From the NCBI GenBank assembly GCA_945897955.1, contig CAMDGQ010000002.1, forward strand, positions 1-64,000: a stretch of 64,000 bases of DNA, given 5' to 3'. The notes below the pieces were generated by a model that searched no databases, was not told the origin of the DNA, and saw only the letters and a program-made list of their open reading frames with translations. This DNA comes from Tepidiphilus sp. J10. GTDB lineage: Bacteria > Pseudomonadota > Gammaproteobacteria > Burkholderiales > Thiobacillaceae. Each line of letters starts with the position of its first letter. Positions within the stretch are counted from its first letter, which is position 1. This document shows positions 33,110 to 45,348 of this stretch, piece after piece. The position numbers were made by a program, and so were the translations under genes.

Positions 33110-33217
33110 ATGAAAGGCCAGGAAAGCAAGAAAACCGCCAAGAAGGAACCCGCCAAGACCATGAAGGAAAAAAAGGAAGCAAAAAAGCTCAAGAAGGAAG
33201 AAAAGAGTCGGCAATGA
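33110..33217 (+). CDS. Lysine-rich small protein, 35 aa
   Basis: The open frame begins with three in-frame ATGs (33104, 33107, 33110). AGGAG at 33099-33103 best fits the third. The product (MKGQESKKTAKKEP..., ending EEKSRQ) is over one third lysine with Glu and Ala, highly charged and probably disordered or a charged helix. It has no Cys or Trp. Function unknown; nucleic-acid or ribosome association is possible from charge. A structured leader lies upstream and a coiled-coil membrane protein follows 26 bp downstream. Confidence 0.62.
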   Translation: MKGQESKKTAKKEPAKTMKEKKEAKKLKKEEKSRQ

Positions 33218-33243
33218 AACCATCCAGTTCGCGCTGATCTGCC

Positions 33244-33699
33244 ATGGCTGTCTGGATTCCCGTTCTGAAAGCCGCGTTGCCCTACGTCAGCAATCTAGTG
33301 GCGACGGCCCTGCCGGTATTCACCAGCAAAAAGGAGCAGGAAGCTTCAGCCGAACTGGTCGCGCGGCAGATCGCCGAATTACAGACTGCGGTTACCGGCA
33401 ATGCCGAGGCAGTGAAAGGTCTGGCGGCGCAGCTTGAAAAAACGATCACCGCGCTGGAGGCAGGTGAATCCGACCTGTCGCGACGCTTCGCCGGGCTGCA
33501 GGAAGGACTTGGACGTTGCGAAAGCGCCGCCAGCCTGCTCCAGGCGCAAACCAGCCGGCAGGAAAGCGGCGCGGCAGCCATGCAGATCAGGATTGATGCG
33601 CTCGATCAACAACTCGCGAGCGAGCGACGCCGGGGAATTGCGATCGCTCTGGTCGCAGCGCTCGCCTTGATCGTCGCCGTCTTCGCCCTGCTGCGCTAA
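33244..33699 (+). CDS. Coiled-coil protein with C-terminal membrane anchor
   Basis: A 151-aa protein. A hydrophobic N-terminal segment (VLKAALPYVSNLVATALPVF) is followed by a long Gln/Ala/Glu-rich coiled coil (about 35-125) and a C-terminal membrane helix (GIAIALVAALALIVAVFALL). It resembles small tail-anchored structural proteins but no family is recognised. It is convergent with the end of the rnf operon, 10 bp away. Weak ribosome-binding site. Confidence 0.65.
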   Translation: MAVWIPVLKAALPYVSNLVATALPVFTSKKEQEASAELVARQIAELQTAVTGNAEAVKGLAAQLEKTITALEAGESDLSRRFAGLQEGLGRCESAASLLQAQTSRQESGAAAMQIRIDALDQQLASERRRGIAIALVAALALIVAVFALLR

Positions 33700-33709
33700 A
33701 TAAGGAATT

Positions 33710-33898
33710 TCAGGACTTGTCGCAGGCGCCCTCGGCGCACGATCCTTTTGCCGAGCAACAGCCGCAACCGTTATCGCTGTCGCGGAATGGACCAAGTTGC
33801 GGGTTCTTGCTGGCGAAGCCGCGATACAGGCGGTCGACCCCGATACCGATCAGGCCGATGCCCATGATCAGGCCGATAGTGGTCAGATAAGTGCTCAT
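33710..33898 (-). CDS. Small Cys-rich membrane protein at the end of the rnf operon
   Basis: A 62-aa protein: one membrane helix (YLTTIGLIMGIGLIGIGVDRL) and a cytoplasmic or periplasmic tail with five Cys (NGCGCCSAKGSCAEGACDKS). Its ATG overlaps the rnfA stop by four bases and has a GGGGGA site. The layout recalls NqrM-type iron-delivery proteins needed for NQR maturation, although the sequence is not clearly that family. It may help assemble an Fe centre of the Rnf complex. Unnamed; identity inferred from position and Cys pattern. Confidence 0.7.
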   Translation of the reverse strand: MSTYLTTIGLIMGIGLIGIGVDRLYRGFASKNPQLGPFRDSDNGCGCCSAKGSCAEGACDKS

Positions 33899-34479
33899 TC
33901 CCCCGCTCCCAAACCGGCGAAGCCCATGAAGGCGAGCGAGAGCAGGCCGGCGAGCATCAGCGACAGCGCCGTGCCTTGCACCACGTTGGGCACGGTCGCG
34001 AGACGCAGGCGTTCGCGCAGCCCGGCCATCAGCAGCAAGGCCAGAGTGAAACCAAGACCGCCGGCGGTGGCGAAGGTGAGCGCCTGCGTGAAGCTGTATT
34101 CGCGAGCGGTCTGGAACAGCGCGACGCCGAGCACCGCGCAGTTGGTGGTGATCAGCGGCAGATAGATGCCGAGCGCTCGGAAAAGTACCGGGCTGTACTT
34201 CTTCAGCACCATTTCCACCAGTTGCACCGCCGACGCGATGATCACGATGTAGGAAATCAGACGCAGGAATTCGAGATTGAACGCGGACACCAGCCAGTTC
34301 AGGCCGAAGGCGCACAGGCTGGCGACGACCATGACAAAGGTGGTGGCGGCCCCCATCGGCAGCGCGGTATTCAGACGTGCTGAGACGCCCAGGAAAGGAC
34401 ACAGCCCGAGAAACATGGCCAGCACGAAGTTGTTGGCCAGCAGCGTGCCGATGAAGATTTGCGAGAGCGATTCGGTCAT
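33895..34479 (-). CDS. rnfA: Rnf complex subunit RnfA
   Basis: A 194-aa polytopic protein with six predicted helices. Family segments are NNFVLAMFLGLCPFLGVS, ITTNCAVLGVAL and SLAFMGFAGL. RnfA and RnfE form the membrane core that holds an intramembrane Fe centre and a conduction path. Start overlaps the rnfE stop by four bases. Confidence 0.95.
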   Translation of the reverse strand: MTESLSQIFIGTLLANNFVLAMFLGLCPFLGVSARLNTALPMGAATTFVMVVASLCAFGLNWLVSAFNLEFLRLISYIVIIASAVQLVEMVLKKYSPVLFRALGIYLPLITTNCAVLGVALFQTAREYSFTQALTFATAGGLGFTLALLLMAGLRERLRLATVPNVVQGTALSLMLAGLLSLAFMGFAGLGAGE

Positions 34480-35135
34480 GCTCTTGCCTCCGCCGACTGG
34501 ATGGCAGCTGGCTTGGCCTTGCGGATATTCAGCCAGTTGAACAGCAACAGCCAGGCGCCCAGCACGAAGAAGCCGCCCGGCGGCAGCACCATCACCACCC
34601 AGGGCTGGAACTCGGGCCCGAACAGCGCGATACCGAACAACTTGCCGGCGCCGAGGATTTCCCGCACGGAGCCCAAGGCCAACAGACCGATGGTGAAACC
34701 GGCGCCCATACCGAGCGCGTTGATTACCGACTTCAGCGGCGGATTCTTCGACGCGTGCGCTTCGGCGCGGCCGAGGATGATGCAATTCACCACGATAAGC
34801 TGAATGAACGCGCCCAGCGCGTCGTACACCGCCAGACTGATGGCCTGGATCAGGTAATCCACCACGGTAACGAAGGTGGCGATGATCAGGATATAGGTGG
34901 CGATGCGGACTTCCTTCGGAATGACGTTGCGCAACGCGGAAACCAGCAGCGTGGACGCGACCAGCACGAAGGTGGTAGCGAGCCCCATGCTGAGCGCGTT
35001 GACCGCCGAAACCGAGACCGCCAGCACCGGGCACATGCCCAGCACCATGACGAACACCGGGTTCTGCTTCCAGATGCCTTCCAGCAGCTCTTCCACATTG
35101 GAGCGTTGTTTCTGTCCCGGGATGGCCATGTTCAC
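34476..35135 (-). CDS. rnfE: Rnf complex subunit RnfE
   Basis: A 219-aa polytopic protein homologous to RnfA with inverted topology (NPVFVMVLGMCPVLAVSVSA, IVVNCIILGRAEAHASKN, PPGGFFVLGAWLLL). The frame opens with GTG 35135 overlapping the rnfG stop; ATG 35129 is an alternative. Lies between rnfG and rnfA. Confidence 0.95.
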   Translation of the reverse strand: MNMAIPGQKQRSNVEELLEGIWKQNPVFVMVLGMCPVLAVSVSAVNALSMGLATTFVLVASTLLVSALRNVIPKEVRIATYILIIATFVTVVDYLIQAISLAVYDALGAFIQLIVVNCIILGRAEAHASKNPPLKSVINALGMGAGFTIGLLALGSVREILGAGKLFGIALFGPEFQPWVVMVLPPGGFFVLGAWLLLFNWLNIRKAKPAAIQSAEARA

Positions 35136-35812
35136 TTGCCTCCTTGCAGCTTGTCGAGATGCGGAACCAACAGCGGCAGCAGCTTTTGCGCGCTCTCGTT
35201 GATGCCCTTGCCCACCGCCTTCGACGTCACCGTGGCGCCGGCGATGGCGTCGATTTCCCAGGCATTCTGTTTACTGCCGTGCTTCACCGTCTTTATCGCA
35301 TGCGCCAGCGATTTCATGTCGGCGGCCAGGGTCGCGTCCAGCGCCACGAAGTTTTTCAGGAAGGCGGCGTCGGTGATGATCTTGTCGCCGATGCCCGGCG
35401 TTTCCCGCATCGACACCACGCCGAGGCCGGTGATGGCCTGCTTCGCGGTGTCGTAGGCATAGAGCACGCGCACTGTGTCGGCGTAGCCCTTGGCTGCGCC
35501 CTCGGCGGCCACGCCCTTGAGCGCGCCGACTGCGTCGTAGGCGGCGTAGAACTTGACAGCGCCTTGCGGCACGACGGCGCCGGCCGGCTCGATGCCGCCA
35601 CTGCCGGCGACGAACTCCCTGACGCTGGAAGCGCCCGGAATCACCTTGAACACTGCGCGTTCCAGCGCCAGTTTCTTGTTCGCGGCGACCGGTTCGAGCG
35701 TGCCCTGATAGGCGGTCACGATCAGGATGCCGCACACCGTGGCGACGATGCCCAGCGTGCGGATCATCGCGGCGCTGGGGGTAGCGGGTTGCAGGGAGGC
35801 GGCTTCGCTCAT
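35132..35812 (-). CDS. rnfG: Rnf complex subunit RnfG (covalent FMN)
   Basis: A 226-aa protein with one N-terminal membrane helix (IRTLGIVATVCGILIVTAY) and a periplasmic FMN-binding domain. The flavinylation site reads DAIAGATVTSKAV (GAT at 192-194), with the usual Ser/Thr before GAT replaced by Ala. GVVSMRETPGIGDKI is the other conserved stretch. Overlaps rnfD and rnfE by four bases each. FMN attachment needs ApbE, which is not in this window. Confidence 0.94.
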   Translation of the reverse strand: MSEAASLQPATPSAAMIRTLGIVATVCGILIVTAYQGTLEPVAANKKLALERAVFKVIPGASSVREFVAGSGGIEPAGAVVPQGAVKFYAAYDAVGALKGVAAEGAAKGYADTVRVLYAYDTAKQAITGLGVVSMRETPGIGDKIITDAAFLKNFVALDATLAADMKSLAHAIKTVKHGSKQNAWEIDAIAGATVTSKAVGKGINESAQKLLPLLVPHLDKLQGGK

Positions 35813-36849
35813 GCTTTCTTCCCCTTCACCTGCCCGAACACCTTGGGTTGTGTCACCTGGTCGATCAGAGGCGCCAGCGCGTTGCCGATCAGGATGGCGT
35901 ACATGACGCCTTCGGTGAGGCCGCCGAAGTAGCGAATCATCACGGTCAGCACGCCGATCAATGCGCCGTAGATCCACACGCCTTTCGGCGTCACCGGCGA
36001 AGTCGCCATGTCGCTCGCCATGAACACCGCGCCCAGCATGATGCCCCCGGAAAGCAGCACGAACAGCGGGTCGGGATAGCGTGCCGGATCGATCATCTGG
36101 AACACCTGCGCGGTCAGCGCGGCGCTGCCCAGGATGGCAACCGGAATGCGCCAGTCCATGAACTTGCGTACCGCCAGATAAGCGCCGCAAAGCAGGATCA
36201 GGATGGCCGATGTCTCGCCCGCCGAGGCGGTGACGCTACCGCTGATGAAGTCCATCGGCGTCGCCAGCACATTCTCGAATTTCCAGCGCGCCAGCGGCGT
36301 CGCGCCGGTGAAGCCGTCCAGCGCCTGCTTGGCCCAGACCGAAATGTCGGGCGGCTGCATCAGCGGCGTGGTGAACGTGGTCGGCGCGAATTCGCTGAAA
36401 CGTTGCGGCGAGAAGGCGGGTATCCAGGTCGTGATGGCAACCGGAAACGCCGCCTGCACGAAGGCGCGGCCGACCAGCGCCGGGTTCATCACGTTGAAAC
36501 CGATGCCGCCGAACAACGCCTTGCCCAGCGCGATGGCGGCAAAACCGGCGACCACGCCCATCCAGAGCGGGAAGGCGGGCGGCAGACTCAGCGCCAGCAG
36601 CAGACCGGTGATGGTCGCGGACCAGTCCGACAGCGTGTTGTGCTGGCCGGAGAGCTTGTTGAACAGGCGTTCGCTGCCGATACAGGCCAGCACCACCGTG
36701 ATCAACGACGCGAGCGCGGAAAGGCCGTACTGCCAGACCGAAAAGGCGGCAATCGGCAACAGCGCCAGCACCACGTTGAACATGATGGTCTCGACGCTGG
36801 CGCCTTTCACCACATGCGGCGAGGTGCGCAGTTCGATACGCGGAGTCAT
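35809..36849 (-). CDS. rnfD: Rnf complex subunit RnfD (covalent FMN)
   Basis: A 346-aa polytopic protein. The FMN-attachment motif is TGATPLA (Thr184), with GFNVMNPALVGRAF and ASDMATSPVTPKG conserved. RnfD carries covalent FMN on the periplasmic side of the membrane. Overlaps rnfC and rnfG by four bases. Confidence 0.95.
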   Translation of the reverse strand: MTPRIELRTSPHVVKGASVETIMFNVVLALLPIAAFSVWQYGLSALASLITVVLACIGSERLFNKLSGQHNTLSDWSATITGLLLALSLPPAFPLWMGVVAGFAAIALGKALFGGIGFNVMNPALVGRAFVQAAFPVAITTWIPAFSPQRFSEFAPTTFTTPLMQPPDISVWAKQALDGFTGATPLARWKFENVLATPMDFISGSVTASAGETSAILILLCGAYLAVRKFMDWRIPVAILGSAALTAQVFQMIDPARYPDPLFVLLSGGIMLGAVFMASDMATSPVTPKGVWIYGALIGVLTVMIRYFGGLTEGVMYAILIGNALAPLIDQVTQPKVFGQVKGKKA

Positions 36850-38183
36850 GTCGATTTACCTCGCAGAATGCCCTTCGCCACGCGGAACTGCTGCACCAGC
36901 GGAATATGCGAAGGACAGACATAAGTGCAGCAACCGCATTCGAAACAGTCGCCAAGATGAAAGCTGGAGCCCATTTCCTCATATTCGCGTTGCGCGGCAA
37001 GCATGCCGAGCATGGAGGGATTGAGTCCCATCGGGCAGACCTTTACGCACTCGCCGCACTTGATGCACGGCCAGACACGGCGCGGGCCTTCCAGTTGCAG
37101 CTTGTCGAACACCAGGATGCCGGACACGCCCTTGGTTACCGGCACGTCGAGCGAGGCAACGGCCTGGCCCATCATCGGGCCGCCGAGCACGATTTCGCGC
37201 TCGTCGCTGTTGGCTGCGCCGGCCCATTCCAGCACCGTGCGCATCGGTGTGCCGATCGGCACCCAGTAATCGCCCGGCTTCCTGATGCCGGGCCCGGTCA
37301 CGGTAACCACGCGTTCGGTCAGCCCCTCGCCGGCCGGCAGCAACTGGCCCAGTTGCGCCAGCGTACCGACGTTGTTGACCACCACGCCGACATGCATCGG
37401 CAACTTTCCAGGCGGCACTTCCACGTTCAGCAGCGACTTGATCAGCATCTTCTCGGCGCCCTGCGGGTACTTGGTCGGTACCGCCCGCACCGTGATGCTG
37501 CCGTCGGCAGGCAAACATTTGCGTATCGCCTCGACCGCGTCCAGCTTGTTGTCCTCGACACCGATGATCGCGCGCTCGGCGCCGATCGCCCGCATCGCCA
37601 GCCGCGTGCCGACCATCAGATCGTCCGGATACTCCAGCATCAGGCGGTGATCGCAGGTCAGGTAGGGCTCGCACTCGCAGCCATTGACGATCAGTGTGTG
37701 GATCTTGTGCTCGGCCGGCACGGTCAGCTTGGCGTGGCTGGGAAAAGTCGCGCCGCCGAGGCCGACCATGCCGCTGTCCTGGATGGCCTGGATGATGTCG
37801 TGCGATGTGGCGGTGGCGAGGTCAATCGGATTGGCCCAGCCGACTTGCTGGATGGAGGCCTCGTACACGCGCAGCACGATGGATTCGACCCAGGGGCCGC
37901 GCGCGCTGGCTTTCAACTCGATGGCCTCAATGACGCCGTCGGCCGGGGCATGAATGGGAACCGACAGGAATCCGTCGGCCTTCGCGATGGGTTGGCCGCG
38001 TACGACCTCCTCGCCGGCCCGAACAAGGGGCACTGCCGGCTTACCAATGTGCTGCGCGAGGGGGAGGATCATGCGCGACGCAAACGGCATCCGACGAATC
38101 GGACTGCCGGCAGTGCTCTTGTGCGCGTCGGGATGAACCCCGCGCGCGAATGTGTTGCGATGGAAGATGGACAGGAAGCTCAT
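36846..38183 (-). CDS. rnfC: Rnf complex subunit RnfC (FMN, iron-sulfur)
   Basis: A 445-aa soluble subunit. An FMN/NADH-binding Nqo1-like region (VGLGGATFPSHAKL, NGCECEPYLTCDHRLM) precedes two 4Fe-4S motifs, CIKCGECVKVCP and CFECGCCTYVCP. RnfC exchanges electrons with NAD. It is of compact size, without the long Ala-rich tail of enteric RnfC. Follows the oxidoreductase gene after an 86-bp gap that contains repeats. Confidence 0.95.
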   Translation of the reverse strand: MSFLSIFHRNTFARGVHPDAHKSTAGSPIRRMPFASRMILPLAQHIGKPAVPLVRAGEEVVRGQPIAKADGFLSVPIHAPADGVIEAIELKASARGPWVESIVLRVYEASIQQVGWANPIDLATATSHDIIQAIQDSGMVGLGGATFPSHAKLTVPAEHKIHTLIVNGCECEPYLTCDHRLMLEYPDDLMVGTRLAMRAIGAERAIIGVEDNKLDAVEAIRKCLPADGSITVRAVPTKYPQGAEKMLIKSLLNVEVPPGKLPMHVGVVVNNVGTLAQLGQLLPAGEGLTERVVTVTGPGIRKPGDYWVPIGTPMRTVLEWAGAANSDEREIVLGGPMMGQAVASLDVPVTKGVSGILVFDKLQLEGPRRVWPCIKCGECVKVCPMGLNPSMLGMLAAQREYEEMGSSFHLGDCFECGCCTYVCPSHIPLVQQFRVAKGILRGKST

Positions 38184-38202
38184 GGGGGCGAGTCGCTAGT
38201 GG

Positions 38203-38251
38203 CAAGTCGCAAGTAGCAAGTGGCGACACGCCACTCGCGACTTGCGATTCG
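38203..38251. repeat. Imperfect long palindrome built from 7-base units
   Basis: The gap between the oxidoreductase and rnfC contains repeated units such as AAGTCGC, AAGTAGC and AAGTGGC. They are followed by their complements, centred on the perfect stem AGTGGCG-ACA-CGCCACT (38219-38235). Arms extend to about 20 bp with a few mismatches. It could form a hairpin in the nifJ-rnfC transcript. Confidence 0.7.
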
Positions 38252-38269
38252 CCATTCGCCGTCTTTTCA

Positions 38270-43264
<4,995 letters not shown>

Positions 43265-43364
43265 GTGAATTGCCTTTTATTAAGAAAAACGCCGGGCTGA
43301 CCCAGGTTTCACCTGGCCCCTTGCGGGGAGCGGTGCACGCTTGAGGGGCGAGCCGGAGCTGTTT

Positions 43365-44249
43365 TCATACAACGTTGGCGCTGACTGGGAGCGACTCGAT
43401 GCGGATAATCTTCCTGGCCTCACGCCCTTTCATCATGCGGCTGTCATCCAGCCAGACGATGGCCCCGGTGGGGCAGCGCTCGATTGCTGTTGGCGACGCC
43501 AGGCTGTTCCTGGTGTAGTCGATCACCGCCAGGTTGTTTTCCAGGCGGATCAGTCCGGGGGCGGCATCCATCGCGCATTTGCCGCAGGCGGTACAGGCCA
43601 CCTGGCATTGCGCTTCGGCGACATCGCCTTCCGCCCGGCTCTTGCAGGCCACCCAGAGCTTGTGACTCACGGGCTGCAAGGAAAAAAGGTCTTTCGGACA
43701 GACATCGACGCAGTCGCCACAGGCGGTGCAGCGATCGACATCCACTTCCGGCAGACCCTGTTTGTTCATGCCGATGGCGTCGAAATCGCATTCGACTTCG
43801 CAGTCGCCCAATCCGAGACATCCCCAGGCGCAGGCTTTGCCGCCGCCGGACACCGTCGCCGCCGCACGGCAAGTGCCGAGGCCTTCATATTTTGCGCGCT
43901 GCCAGGCGACATGGCTGCCACCCGCGCAAGCCAGACGCGCGACCTGCTTTTCCACCTCGCCCATCGCCACACCAAGAAAGCCGGCGATATAGGCGTTCAT
44001 TTCCGGTGAATTGACACTGCACTTGGCCGGGATGATCTCGCCGGCAACGACCTGCTCGGCGAAATTGCGACACCCGGCCGTGCCACAGGCGCCACAGTTG
44101 GACTTGGGCAACATTTCCTCGACCTCGCCGATGCGCGGGTCTTCGTAGACATAGAGACGCTTGTTGGCAAAAGCCAGCATCCAGGCCAATGCGCTGCCCA
44201 GGACCGCCATGAAGGCCCCTGCCATCGCCACGCCTGAAAGCATCTCCAT
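43365..44249 (-). CDS. rnfB: Rnf complex subunit RnfB (iron-sulfur)
   Basis: A 294-aa protein. A membrane anchor (VAMAGAFMAVLGSALAWMLAF) precedes the Fe-S motif NCGACGTAGCRNFA, with a following Cys at AKC. Further Cys-rich stretches and ferredoxin motifs (CTACGDCVDVCPKDLF, CQVACTACGKC) then follow. RnfB is the ferredoxin-docking subunit. It leads the operon and is separated from the other rnf genes by nifJ. The 100-bp gap to nifJ has two small hairpins (43302-43316 and 43317-43328). Confidence 0.93.
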   Translation of the reverse strand: MEMLSGVAMAGAFMAVLGSALAWMLAFANKRLYVYEDPRIGEVEEMLPKSNCGACGTAGCRNFAEQVVAGEIIPAKCSVNSPEMNAYIAGFLGVAMGEVEKQVARLACAGGSHVAWQRAKYEGLGTCRAAATVSGGGKACAWGCLGLGDCEVECDFDAIGMNKQGLPEVDVDRCTACGDCVDVCPKDLFSLQPVSHKLWVACKSRAEGDVAEAQCQVACTACGKCAMDAAPGLIRLENNLAVIDYTRNSLASPTAIERCPTGAIVWLDDSRMMKGREARKIIRIESLPVSANVV

Positions 44250-44370
44250 CTACACTCCTTTACCTGACAAAATCAGTCAGCAATCTATAGACCATTAAAT
44301 CCATGAATGTTGCGGTGCACAGTTTATTGACATGCCGACTATGCAATCGGCCAATAATTTCAATCTTGAA

Positions 44371-44395
44371 CATTGCCCCCATTAATGATGCAATG
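44371..44395. promoter_or_regulatory. Dyad in the rnfB/LysR intergenic region, candidate operator
   Basis: CATTGC and GCAATG are separated by 13 bases that include the palindrome CATTAATG. The dyad lies 26 bp before the LysR-family start and in the 172-bp divergent region with rnfB. LysR proteins often bind such dyads (T-N11-A). Visual match only. Confidence 0.4.
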
Positions 44396-44421
44396 CAACA
44401 AACCCGAAACATCCACTAATC

Positions 44422-45348
44422 ATGCCATCAGACTCTCAGCTCTACTACAAGAACAACCGCCTGAAGCAGTTGCGTGCCTTCTATCAGGTCGTTCGCTGCG
44501 GCAGCATTTCCAGGGCAGCGGAAAAACTGTTCCTCTCGCAGCCTTCGGTTTCTCTGCAAATCCAGGCGCTTGAACGCGAGATGGAAGTTGTGCTGTTCGA
44601 GCGCAGAGGGCCGCAACTAAAGCTTACACCGGAAGGTGAAGTACTGTTCAAGCTGGCTGAACCGCTGGTCGACGGCATCGACAAATTGCAGGAAACCTTC
44701 TCGGCGCACTTCGGCAAGCTGGAATCCGGGGAGCTGAAAATCGGCGCCGGCGAATCCACCATCTTGTACATCATGCCGGAGCCGGTTCGCCGTTTCGTCG
44801 CAGCCTATCCCAAGGTGCAACTCAAGATACTCAACGTCACCGGGCGTGACGGTCTCAAGATGCTGCGCTCGGACGAGATCGACTTCGCCGTTGGCTCGCT
44901 GCTGGAAGTGCCGGAAGACATCGAATACAAACCGGTGGTGAATTACGACCCGATGCTGATCACGCCGCTTGGCCACCCGCTGGCCGAGAAAGCGGCGTCC
45001 GGGGAAGAAGTCACGCTGGAGGACGTCAGTCATTACGGCCTGATCCTGCCGCCTTCGCATCTGTCGACCTGGCGCATCGTCAAGTATGTGTTCCAGCAGA
45101 ACAACCTGACCTTCACCGTGACGCTGGAAGCCGGCGGCTGGGAAGTAATCAAGAAGTATGTCGAGCTGGGCATGGGCATTTCCATCGTCACCGATATCTG
45201 CATGACCGGCAGCGAAAAACTGGCCAGCATCCCGCTGACCAAATACTTTCCTCAACGCAGTTACGGCCTGGTGCTTCGCCGTGGTCGCTTCATGTCACCG
45301 CAGGCACAACGCTTCGTGGACATCATGGAAAGCGTTCACGCAGGCTGA
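44422..45348 (+). CDS. LysR-family transcriptional regulator (CysB-like)
   Basis: A 308-aa LTTR. The winged helix-turn-helix is near residues 18-65 (RCGSISRAAEKLFLSQPSVSLQIQALE), followed by a two-lobed effector domain (GELKIGAGESTILYIMPEPV, GWEVIKKYVELGMGISIV). The N-terminal 12 residues are an extension. Divergent from rnfB, so it is the likely regulator of the rnfB-nifJ-rnfCDGEA unit. Effector unknown. Confidence 0.88.
   Translation: MPSDSQLYYKNNRLKQLRAFYQVVRCGSISRAAEKLFLSQPSVSLQIQALEREMEVVLFERRGPQLKLTPEGEVLFKLAEPLVDGIDKLQETFSAHFGKLESGELKIGAGESTILYIMPEPVRRFVAAYPKVQLKILNVTGRDGLKMLRSDEIDFAVGSLLEVPEDIEYKPVVNYDPMLITPLGHPLAEKAASGEEVTLEDVSHYGLILPPSHLSTWRIVKYVFQQNNLTFTVTLEAGGWEVIKKYVELGMGISIVTDICMTGSEKLASIPLTKYFPQRSYGLVLRRGRFMSPQAQRFVDIMESVHAG

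Follow-up and report, generated by a model that had tools for sequence, protein, structure and literature searches.

The locus described here raises the question of why the gene for a pyruvate:ferredoxin oxidoreductase (PFOR) should lie inside the operon of the Rnf complex, a ferredoxin:NAD+ oxidoreductase and ion pump. It is found in a stretch of 64,000 nucleotides (nt) from Tepidiphilus sp. J10 (GenBank assembly GCA_945897955.1, contig CAMDGQ010000002.1, positions 1 to 64,000; hereafter the window), in which a giant nifJ gene separates rnfB from the other rnf genes. A dedicated coupling of the predicted NifJ to Rnf is strongly supported by the conserved gene order, the joint occurrence of both components in the same 17 of 399 genomes, a separate clade of RnfC, the presence of the arrangement in three phyla and a ferredoxin built into the enzyme. 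With about even confidence, we propose that the operon encodes one functional unit, in which a dedicated Rnf subtype and a giant, ferredoxin-bearing PFOR would act together, mainly in the synthesis of pyruvate. Gene calls were made by matching open reading frames (ORFs) against Pfam and NCBIfam, and the features of the locus are as follows.

44422 to 45348, plus strand: divergent gene for a LysR-type regulator (PF00126, PF03466)
43365 to 44249, minus strand: rnfB, long type, 294 residues (PF04060 and Fer4 matches)
43265 to 43364, minus strand: rnfB–nifJ gap, 100 nt long, containing a weak hairpin plus a T-run (terminator-like stem at 43305–43292)
38270 to 43264, minus strand: giant nifJ, 1664 residues, a divergent PFOR (POR_N, PFOR_II, POR, TPP_enzyme_C, Fer4_13)
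38531 to 38590, minus strand: Ala/Gly/Pro-rich linker, NifJ residues 1559–1578 (prediction confidence, pLDDT, below 50; length varies between orthologs)
38333 to 38518, minus strand: C-terminal ferredoxin-like domain, NifJ residues 1583–1644 (PF13370; cluster cysteines 1593, 1596, 1599 and 1635)
38184 to 38269, minus strand: nifJ–rnfC gap of 86 nt with a strong stem-loop and no T-run (−45.9 kcal/mol, z −6.33)
36846 to 38183, minus strand: rnfC, the NADH and flavin mononucleotide (FMN) subunit, with two [4Fe-4S] motifs (PF01512, PF13375; TIGR01945)
35809 to 36849, minus strand: rnfD, membrane flavin subunit (TIGR01946)
35132 to 35812, minus strand: rnfG, FMN-binding subunit (PF04205, above cut-off)
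34476 to 35135, minus strand: rnfE, membrane subunit (TIGR01948)
33895 to 34479, minus strand: rnfA, membrane subunit (TIGR01943)
33710 to 33898, minus strand: protein of 62 residues with one hydrophobic stretch, followed by NPQLGPFR and a Cys-rich tail (ORF list)

The preliminary description of this DNA had given the order rnfB-nifJ-rnfC-D-G-E-A plus a small Cys-rich protein, all on one strand with a divergent LysR gene, and its coordinates and names proved correct against the ORFs and the family matches. Five successive junctions, from rnfC through the gene for the 62-residue protein, are overlaps of 4 nt.

Conservation of this order in related genomes, which the same description had named as a check, was borne out. 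A scan of species genomes yielded 550 confirmed relatives, and linkage was counted in the 80 best of these, a sample in which unlinked copies at lower identity might be missed. Cultured bacteria among the carriers are Sulfurisoma sediminicola (L036), Rhodocyclus purpureus (L041), Rhodoferax antarcticus (L048) and Thiothrix caldifontis (L069). In this sample, rnfB lies immediately upstream of nifJ in 77 of the 78 loci with more than 900 nt of upstream sequence, rnfC immediately downstream in all 70 with more than 700 nt of downstream sequence, and rnf D-G-E-A is complete in 58 of the 58 that extend more than 6.5 kb downstream. The sole exception upstream is a Rhodoblastus locus (L079), in which rnfB follows rnfA. 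The lysR gene is less constant: a divergent copy (more than 60% identical, at most 500 nt from rnfB) is present in 27 of 71 loci.

The two components also occur together. In a draw of 399 genomes from the window's order, which scored at most four candidates per genome and may have missed a copy, the RnfC subtype (55–100% identity, the next matches being at 39–42%) was found in 17, and the same 17 hold the giant NifJ. In all of these rnfC comes after nifJ, in 16 on the same contig at a distance of 3–304 nt; the contig of G637 breaks off within rnfC, shortly after nifJ. A draw of 398 genomes from the phylum gave a full-length match of more than 60% identity in three (G000, G020 and G024), and for the next relatives, at 35–51% identity, nine stretches were read (L134–L142), none of which places them near rnf. 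Matches were found in 38 plasmid records, and in two of them the match spans 80% or more of the giant NifJ, namely in those of Persicobacter psychrovividus (Bacteroidota, 60%) and Gemmatirosa kalamazoonensis (Gemmatimonadota, 50%). Both have nifJ-rnfC-D-G-E-A on one strand and a NifJ that retains the C-terminal ferredoxin domain; in Gemmatirosa, rnfB immediately precedes nifJ, and in Persicobacter it comes behind rnfA. In a phage collection, the matches listed to NifJ are all partial, at 24–26%. As read from these sequences, the nifJ–rnf linkage holds for a clade reaching down to about 50% identity (Gemmatirosa) and not for the whole superfamily.

All six Rnf subunits, A, B, C, D, E and G, are encoded, as judged by Pfam and NCBIfam. 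RnfC (TIGR01945, 505.3 bits against a cut-off of 245.95), RnfD (TIGR01946, 298.8 against 207.05), RnfE (TIGR01948, 230.2 against 213.4) and RnfA (TIGR01943, 237.4 against 229.3) exceed the subfamily cut-offs; RnfB (TIGR01944, 65.8 against 68.7 bits) and RnfG (TIGR01947, 84.3 against 102 bits) fall short of theirs, which marks the predicted complex as a divergent subtype. The long RnfB has 20 cysteines, enough for five [4Fe-4S] clusters, all of them invariant in 78 of 78 or 79 of 79 nifJ-linked rows. The cysteines of the intramembrane [2Fe-2S] cluster are kept without exception, C27 and C114 of RnfA in 62 rows and C35 and C118 of RnfE in 63. T194 in the GATVT motif of RnfG is kept in 64 of 64 rows and T184 of RnfD in 63 of 65, with serine in the other two; we take these to be the threonines that bear covalent FMN. 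The predicted pump is thus complete in both subunits and cofactor residues.

A tree of RnfC (99 rows, 95 of them different) was built by a quick method, in which one row, L169, drew a long-branch warning. A branch with an SH-aLRT support of 100 divides the 78 rows linked to nifJ from the 21 canonical ones, which come from 14 genomes. At least one further canonical rnfC is present in each of the eight giant-NifJ genomes examined. The genome from which the window comes has two canonical rnfABCDGE sets besides the nifJ-linked one.

A separate promoter for nifJ was considered and judged unlikely. A consensus scan of positions 33200–44700 gave no more than shuffled sequence, with one promoter-like site against 2.3 in shuffles and ten terminator-like sites against 9.3 (standard deviation 3.2). 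In six close relatives checked, the rnfB–nifJ gap is 13–15 nt long, with an AGG-type sequence resembling a ribosome site, so that there is no space for a promoter. The 100-nt gap is peculiar to the window among the seven compared, and its terminator-like stem folds no better than shuffles (z −0.98). Strong stem-loops fill the nifJ–rnfC gap of the window (z −6.3), of L005 (9065–9174, z −11.1) and of L007 (15008–15092, z −9.5), and the three are unrelated sequences; four other gaps folded for comparison gave z of −3.5, −2.6, −2.2 and 0.1. These stem-loops may possibly set the ratio of NifJ to Rnf through the stability of the mRNA.

The core of the giant NifJ has the domains POR_N, PFOR_II, POR and TPP_enzyme_C in this order, all above the Pfam cut-offs. 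The cut-off of the equivalog family TIGR02176 is missed (415.5 against 911.35 bits), and the protein is therefore filed as a divergent enzyme of the POR superfamily and not as an equivalog. The EKR domain (PF10371), present in the standard PFOR of the same genome, has no match in the giant NifJ at an E-value of 0.001. In an alignment of 27 orthologs (26 of the best 80, plus G134), residues 65, 98, 148, 1255 and 1288 are invariant; T65, E98, R148 and N1288 are also kept in four of four related giants and in the genome's own standard PFOR. The first three of these map by alignment, and N1288 by offset, to T31, E64, R114 and N996 of the Desulfovibrio africanus PFOR, presumably its pyruvate and thiamine residues. 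Sixteen cysteines, matching four [4Fe-4S] sites, are invariant in all 27 orthologs, and 12 of them lie in the core and account for three clusters. C1246 is likewise invariant in the 27 orthologs and is not kept in the related giants. Residues 735–1245 are predicted with a mean pLDDT of 67.5. The genome's standard-size PFOR (about 1226 residues) has no rnf matches within 18 kb.

The fourth site belongs to the C-terminal domain, whose cysteines 1593, 1596, 1599 and 1635 are invariant in the 27 orthologs; the genome's standard PFOR lacks this domain. The match to PF13370 scores 33.6 bits against a cut-off of 24.5. In an AlphaFold prediction of residues 1365–1664 from 28 sequences (mean pLDDT 82.1), residues 1559–1578 have a pLDDT below 50 and the domain behind them one of about 88. 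Its closest solved structure is D. africanus ferredoxin I (1fxr), with a Z-score of 10.4, a root-mean-square deviation of 1.6 over 62 residues and 32% identity; the Foldseek match has an E-value of 2.6e-4, the rows below the ferredoxins (from rank 13, most with a probability of 0.11 or less) being treated as noise, and a sequence search also recovers the ferredoxin I chains (E 6e-6). Ferredoxin I is a partner of the D. africanus PFOR. Since a ferredoxin-like domain follows a flexible linker, the modelled giant NifJ apparently has an electron carrier of its own, attached by a mobile tether.

On these grounds the following mechanism can be proposed. The three [4Fe-4S] clusters of the core would link the thiamine site to the C-terminal ferredoxin domain, which would swing on its linker and pass electrons between NifJ and the poly-ferredoxin RnfB, so that free ferredoxin would be less needed, or not at all. 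In the structure of Rnf, RnfB is the docking subunit for ferredoxin, and NADH together with an ion gradient can drive the complex backwards, according to the excerpts available of PMC11889175. In the reductive direction, which we think is the main one, NADH would give electrons to RnfC and the ion-motive force would drive them uphill through RnfG, D, E and A to RnfB; the tethered ferredoxin would then hand them to NifJ, which would carboxylate acetyl-CoA to pyruvate, and a phosphoenolpyruvate (PEP) synthase, linked in some relatives, could channel the pyruvate into gluconeogenesis. The reaction is reversible; when oxygen is absent, the unit may operate in the forward direction. The sequences and models show which genes are present and in what order, their co-occurrence, the separate Rnf clade, the conservation of the cofactor residues and the predicted fold of the ferredoxin domain; the contact of RnfB with the tethered domain, the substrate of NifJ, the coupling ion and the direction are the parts of this proposal that we infer. 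The preliminary description had suggested direct energetic coupling; comparison backs a dedicated coupling, and direct transfer of electrons is still conjectural.

The preliminary description had allowed for either direction, pyruvate oxidation with ion export or ion-driven reduction of ferredoxin, and the question was considered from the metabolic context. PEP synthase runs towards PEP, and a gene for it lies on the same strand, 210–474 nt past rnfA, in 22 of 60 eligible loci, among them loci of Gallionellaceae, Thiodiazotropha, Thiohalomonas and Venteria. The linked copy is above the TIGR01418 cut-off in all five tested; it is the only TIGR01418 match of the genome in G024 and G071, and G731 has one linked and one unlinked copy. 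Marker genes were counted in a draw of 150 genomes that includes eight with the giant NifJ. Pyruvate dehydrogenase E1 (aceE) is found in all eight (127 of 150 overall), so NifJ would be unneeded merely for oxidising pyruvate. RuBisCO is found in seven of the eight (68 of 150 overall), which suggests that their hosts are probably lithoautotrophs and not fermenters, and isocitrate lyase in three (80 of 150 overall). Taken together, the gene context favours carboxylation of acetyl-CoA to pyruvate for gluconeogenesis; the oxidative direction is well possible. The acetyl-CoA could come, for example, from stored polyhydroxyalkanoate, as has been proposed for Kentron symbionts, in the accessible text of PMC6593406 with no reference to the operon.

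In the oxidative direction, the same unit would use NifJ to oxidise pyruvate from glycogen or other carbon stores in anoxia; the tethered ferredoxin would reduce RnfB, and Rnf would export ions and reduce NAD+, which would conserve energy that is lost when pyruvate dehydrogenase is used. We regard this as a tentative alternative. The gene arrangement suits it equally, and pyruvate dehydrogenase would be available for oxic life in all eight genomes. It is also the usual role of PFOR with Rnf in fermenters, as for butyrivibrio in the part of PMC4478896 available, and the PFOR of Gallionellaceae is read as fermentative by its authors in the excerpted text of PMC10734482. The 22 loci with a linked PEP synthase and the seven genomes with RuBisCO argue against it.

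It is very unlikely that the unit chiefly feeds low-potential electrons to nitrogenase, in the manner of canonical NifJ and Rnf1 in some diazotrophs. Although nifH is above cut-off in five of the eight giant-NifJ genomes and in 16 of the other 142 (21 of 150 overall), the other three giant-NifJ genomes lack such a match; in G024, G071 and G067, moreover, the rnfC found close to nifH, no more than about 25 kb away, is another one of the canonical type, and the nifJ-linked set is on another contig. An autotrophic reductive tricarboxylic acid (rTCA) cycle was also considered for the window's own genome and is unsupported there, because RuBisCO is present and the genome (92% complete) has only two matches to PF01558 (POR), the giant NifJ and the standard-size PFOR; the PF01558 search revealed nothing else with a POR domain, for instance a KorA to which one is fused.

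Several observations weigh against a single unit devoted to pyruvate synthesis. The linked PEP synthase is absent from 38 of the 60 eligible loci, including the closest relatives of the window; the window itself has none, the genome's own copy being on another contig, and five of the 17 giant-NifJ genomes have no TIGR01418 match. Isocitrate lyase is lacking in five of the eight giant-NifJ genomes, yet such absence is frequent, affecting 70 of the 150 genomes drawn, and the pattern of pyruvate dehydrogenase and isocitrate lyase equally fits an enzyme used solely under anoxia. The pairwise tree distances of nifJ, taken over 66 loci and the window, correlate with those of rnfB, rnfC and rnfD (r of 0.89, 0.85 and 0.88) as strongly as those of the rnf genes do with each other (0.84–0.88), which speaks for a unit; since the comparison covered linked genes only, shared ancestry accounts for part of the correlation. 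The alphaproteobacterial Rhodoblastus genes are nearest to betaproteobacterial ones in all four trees; the nearest is Rhodoferax for nifJ and rnfB, and L030, L031 and L054 for rnfC. Finally, four genomes of one genus of the same phylum (L134–L137) have a more distant giant PFOR of about 1678 residues, with the same 16 cysteines and no rnf within the 17–19 kb read; since giant PFORs with the same C-terminal domain occur away from rnf, a tethered ferredoxin is no exclusive feature of the Rnf-linked enzyme.

In all four of these genomes the distant giant PFOR directly adjoins a gene of about 956 codons, and the one copy tested matches PRK12779, a fusion of GltD and DHODB types (1644 bits against a cut-off of 1519); by this match, the neighbour probably resembles a fused Nfn ferredoxin:NAD(P) enzyme. 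The domain is thus useful beyond Rnf, as would be expected if nifJ and rnf were co-transcribed for regulation only, NifJ and Rnf meeting through the soluble ferredoxin pool and the C-terminal domain serving electron storage or stability. We consider this explanation improbable: the sharing of the same 17 of 399 genomes, an order kept in three phyla and a separate Rnf clade exceed what is usual for shared regulation, and a predicted ferredoxin:NAD(P) converter adjoins the giant PFOR in both settings, rnf and Nfn-like.

Further relatives of the enzyme lie outside rnf. Proteins of 749 residues in L144 (7842–10091, plus strand) and of 710 residues in L145 (8363–10495, minus strand) are related to NifJ residues 1170–1663 and retain the ferredoxin-like C-terminal tail; that of L144 has no Pfam match, and an Nfn-like gene is also close by. 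Both look, from their sequences, like remnants of a PFOR put to other use. In L138 (4265–7975, plus strand) and L142 (8479–12210, plus strand), relatives of the NifJ core are encoded as two genes, for about 680 and 555 residues, with no rnf matches nearby.

The 62-residue protein that ends the operon matched no Pfam or NCBIfam family. Homologues were found by tblastn in 31 related loci, after rnfA wherever the position was read. In outline only, with one hydrophobic helix and a Cys-rich tail, it resembles the maturation factor NqrM, and it could assist the assembly of the RnfA/E cluster. An ORF of 217–227 codons stands between rnfC and rnfD in L007 (16504–17187, plus strand), L004, L005, L006, L010, L027 and L055, with a partial match in L012; it matches no Pfam or NCBIfam family, and the window has instead a 4-nt overlap between the two rnf genes at this place. 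A gene of the ApbE type, which is concerned with flavin transfer, adjoins rnfB in four Rhodoferax loci (L048–L051), lies between rnfA and rnfB in Rhodoblastus and is found within the cluster in Gemmatirosa (L215).

Returning to the proposed unit of Rnf and a pyruvate-synthesising NifJ, a bolder version would make NifJ in effect a seventh Rnf subunit, the whole being a pyruvate synthase driven by the ion-motive force, in which the tethered ferredoxin would lead electrons from NADH, by way of RnfC, G, D, E, A and B, directly to acetyl-CoA and CO2 without diffusible ferredoxin, and which would have travelled as a cassette into three phyla or more; we advance this only as a possibility, and a somewhat doubtful one. 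If the proposal is true, lithotrophs that are microaerophilic or anaerobic would power their reductive synthesis of pyruvate directly by the ion-motive force, through an enzyme and a pump wired together, which would explain how they could use a reaction that, by its redox potentials, NADH alone cannot drive. It would also explain why authors who came upon a 'PFOR' in sulfur- or iron-oxidising bacteria were unable to say which way it runs. The operon offers a natural construct for testing direct channelling of electrons into Rnf, and the giant NifJ together with the long RnfB could serve as a marker in genome annotation.

No description of this nifJ–rnf unit was found in open-licence papers. 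The nearest printed idea encountered is that Rnf, along with other electron carriers, is integrated with the rTCA genes of symbionts (available excerpts of PMC6315080 and PMC11636981). The rTCA clusters of sulfur-oxidising symbionts, which have Rnf, a transhydrogenase and Flx-Hdr, likewise place Rnf among genes of ferredoxin-dependent carboxylation, and their authors also infer direct delivery of electrons, from kor/tfr genes interspersed with flx-hdr genes; they differ in that the enzyme is a 2-oxoglutarate:ferredoxin oxidoreductase, its proposed direct partner is Flx-Hdr, and no giant PFOR between rnfB and rnfC is mentioned in the excerpted text (PMC6315080).

Compared with known PFOR/NifJ enzymes (TIGR02176; PDB 7plm, 1b0p and 6cin), the giant NifJ has the same core domains in the same order, the same three [4Fe-4S] clusters and the same thiamine and pyruvate residues. 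It differs in insertions at about 850–928 and 1047–1153 and in the added linker and ferredoxin domain, and is some 440 residues longer than the standard PFOR of its own genome. The Rnf part shares with the known ferredoxin:NAD+ oxidoreductase the six subunits, the cluster cysteines of RnfA and RnfE and the flavin threonines of RnfG and RnfD; what sets it apart is an RnfC clade distinct from the canonical RnfC that these genomes also encode, the long RnfB with 20 cysteines and the nifJ gene within the operon. The pyruvate:NADP+ oxidoreductase of Euglena and Cryptosporidium is likewise a PFOR fused to its redox partner; there, however, the fusion is to an NADPH-dependent flavoprotein reductase instead of a ferredoxin, and an ion pump plays no part. 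We rate the nifJ–rnf unit as a new arrangement built from known kinds of enzyme, a PFOR and an Rnf complex.

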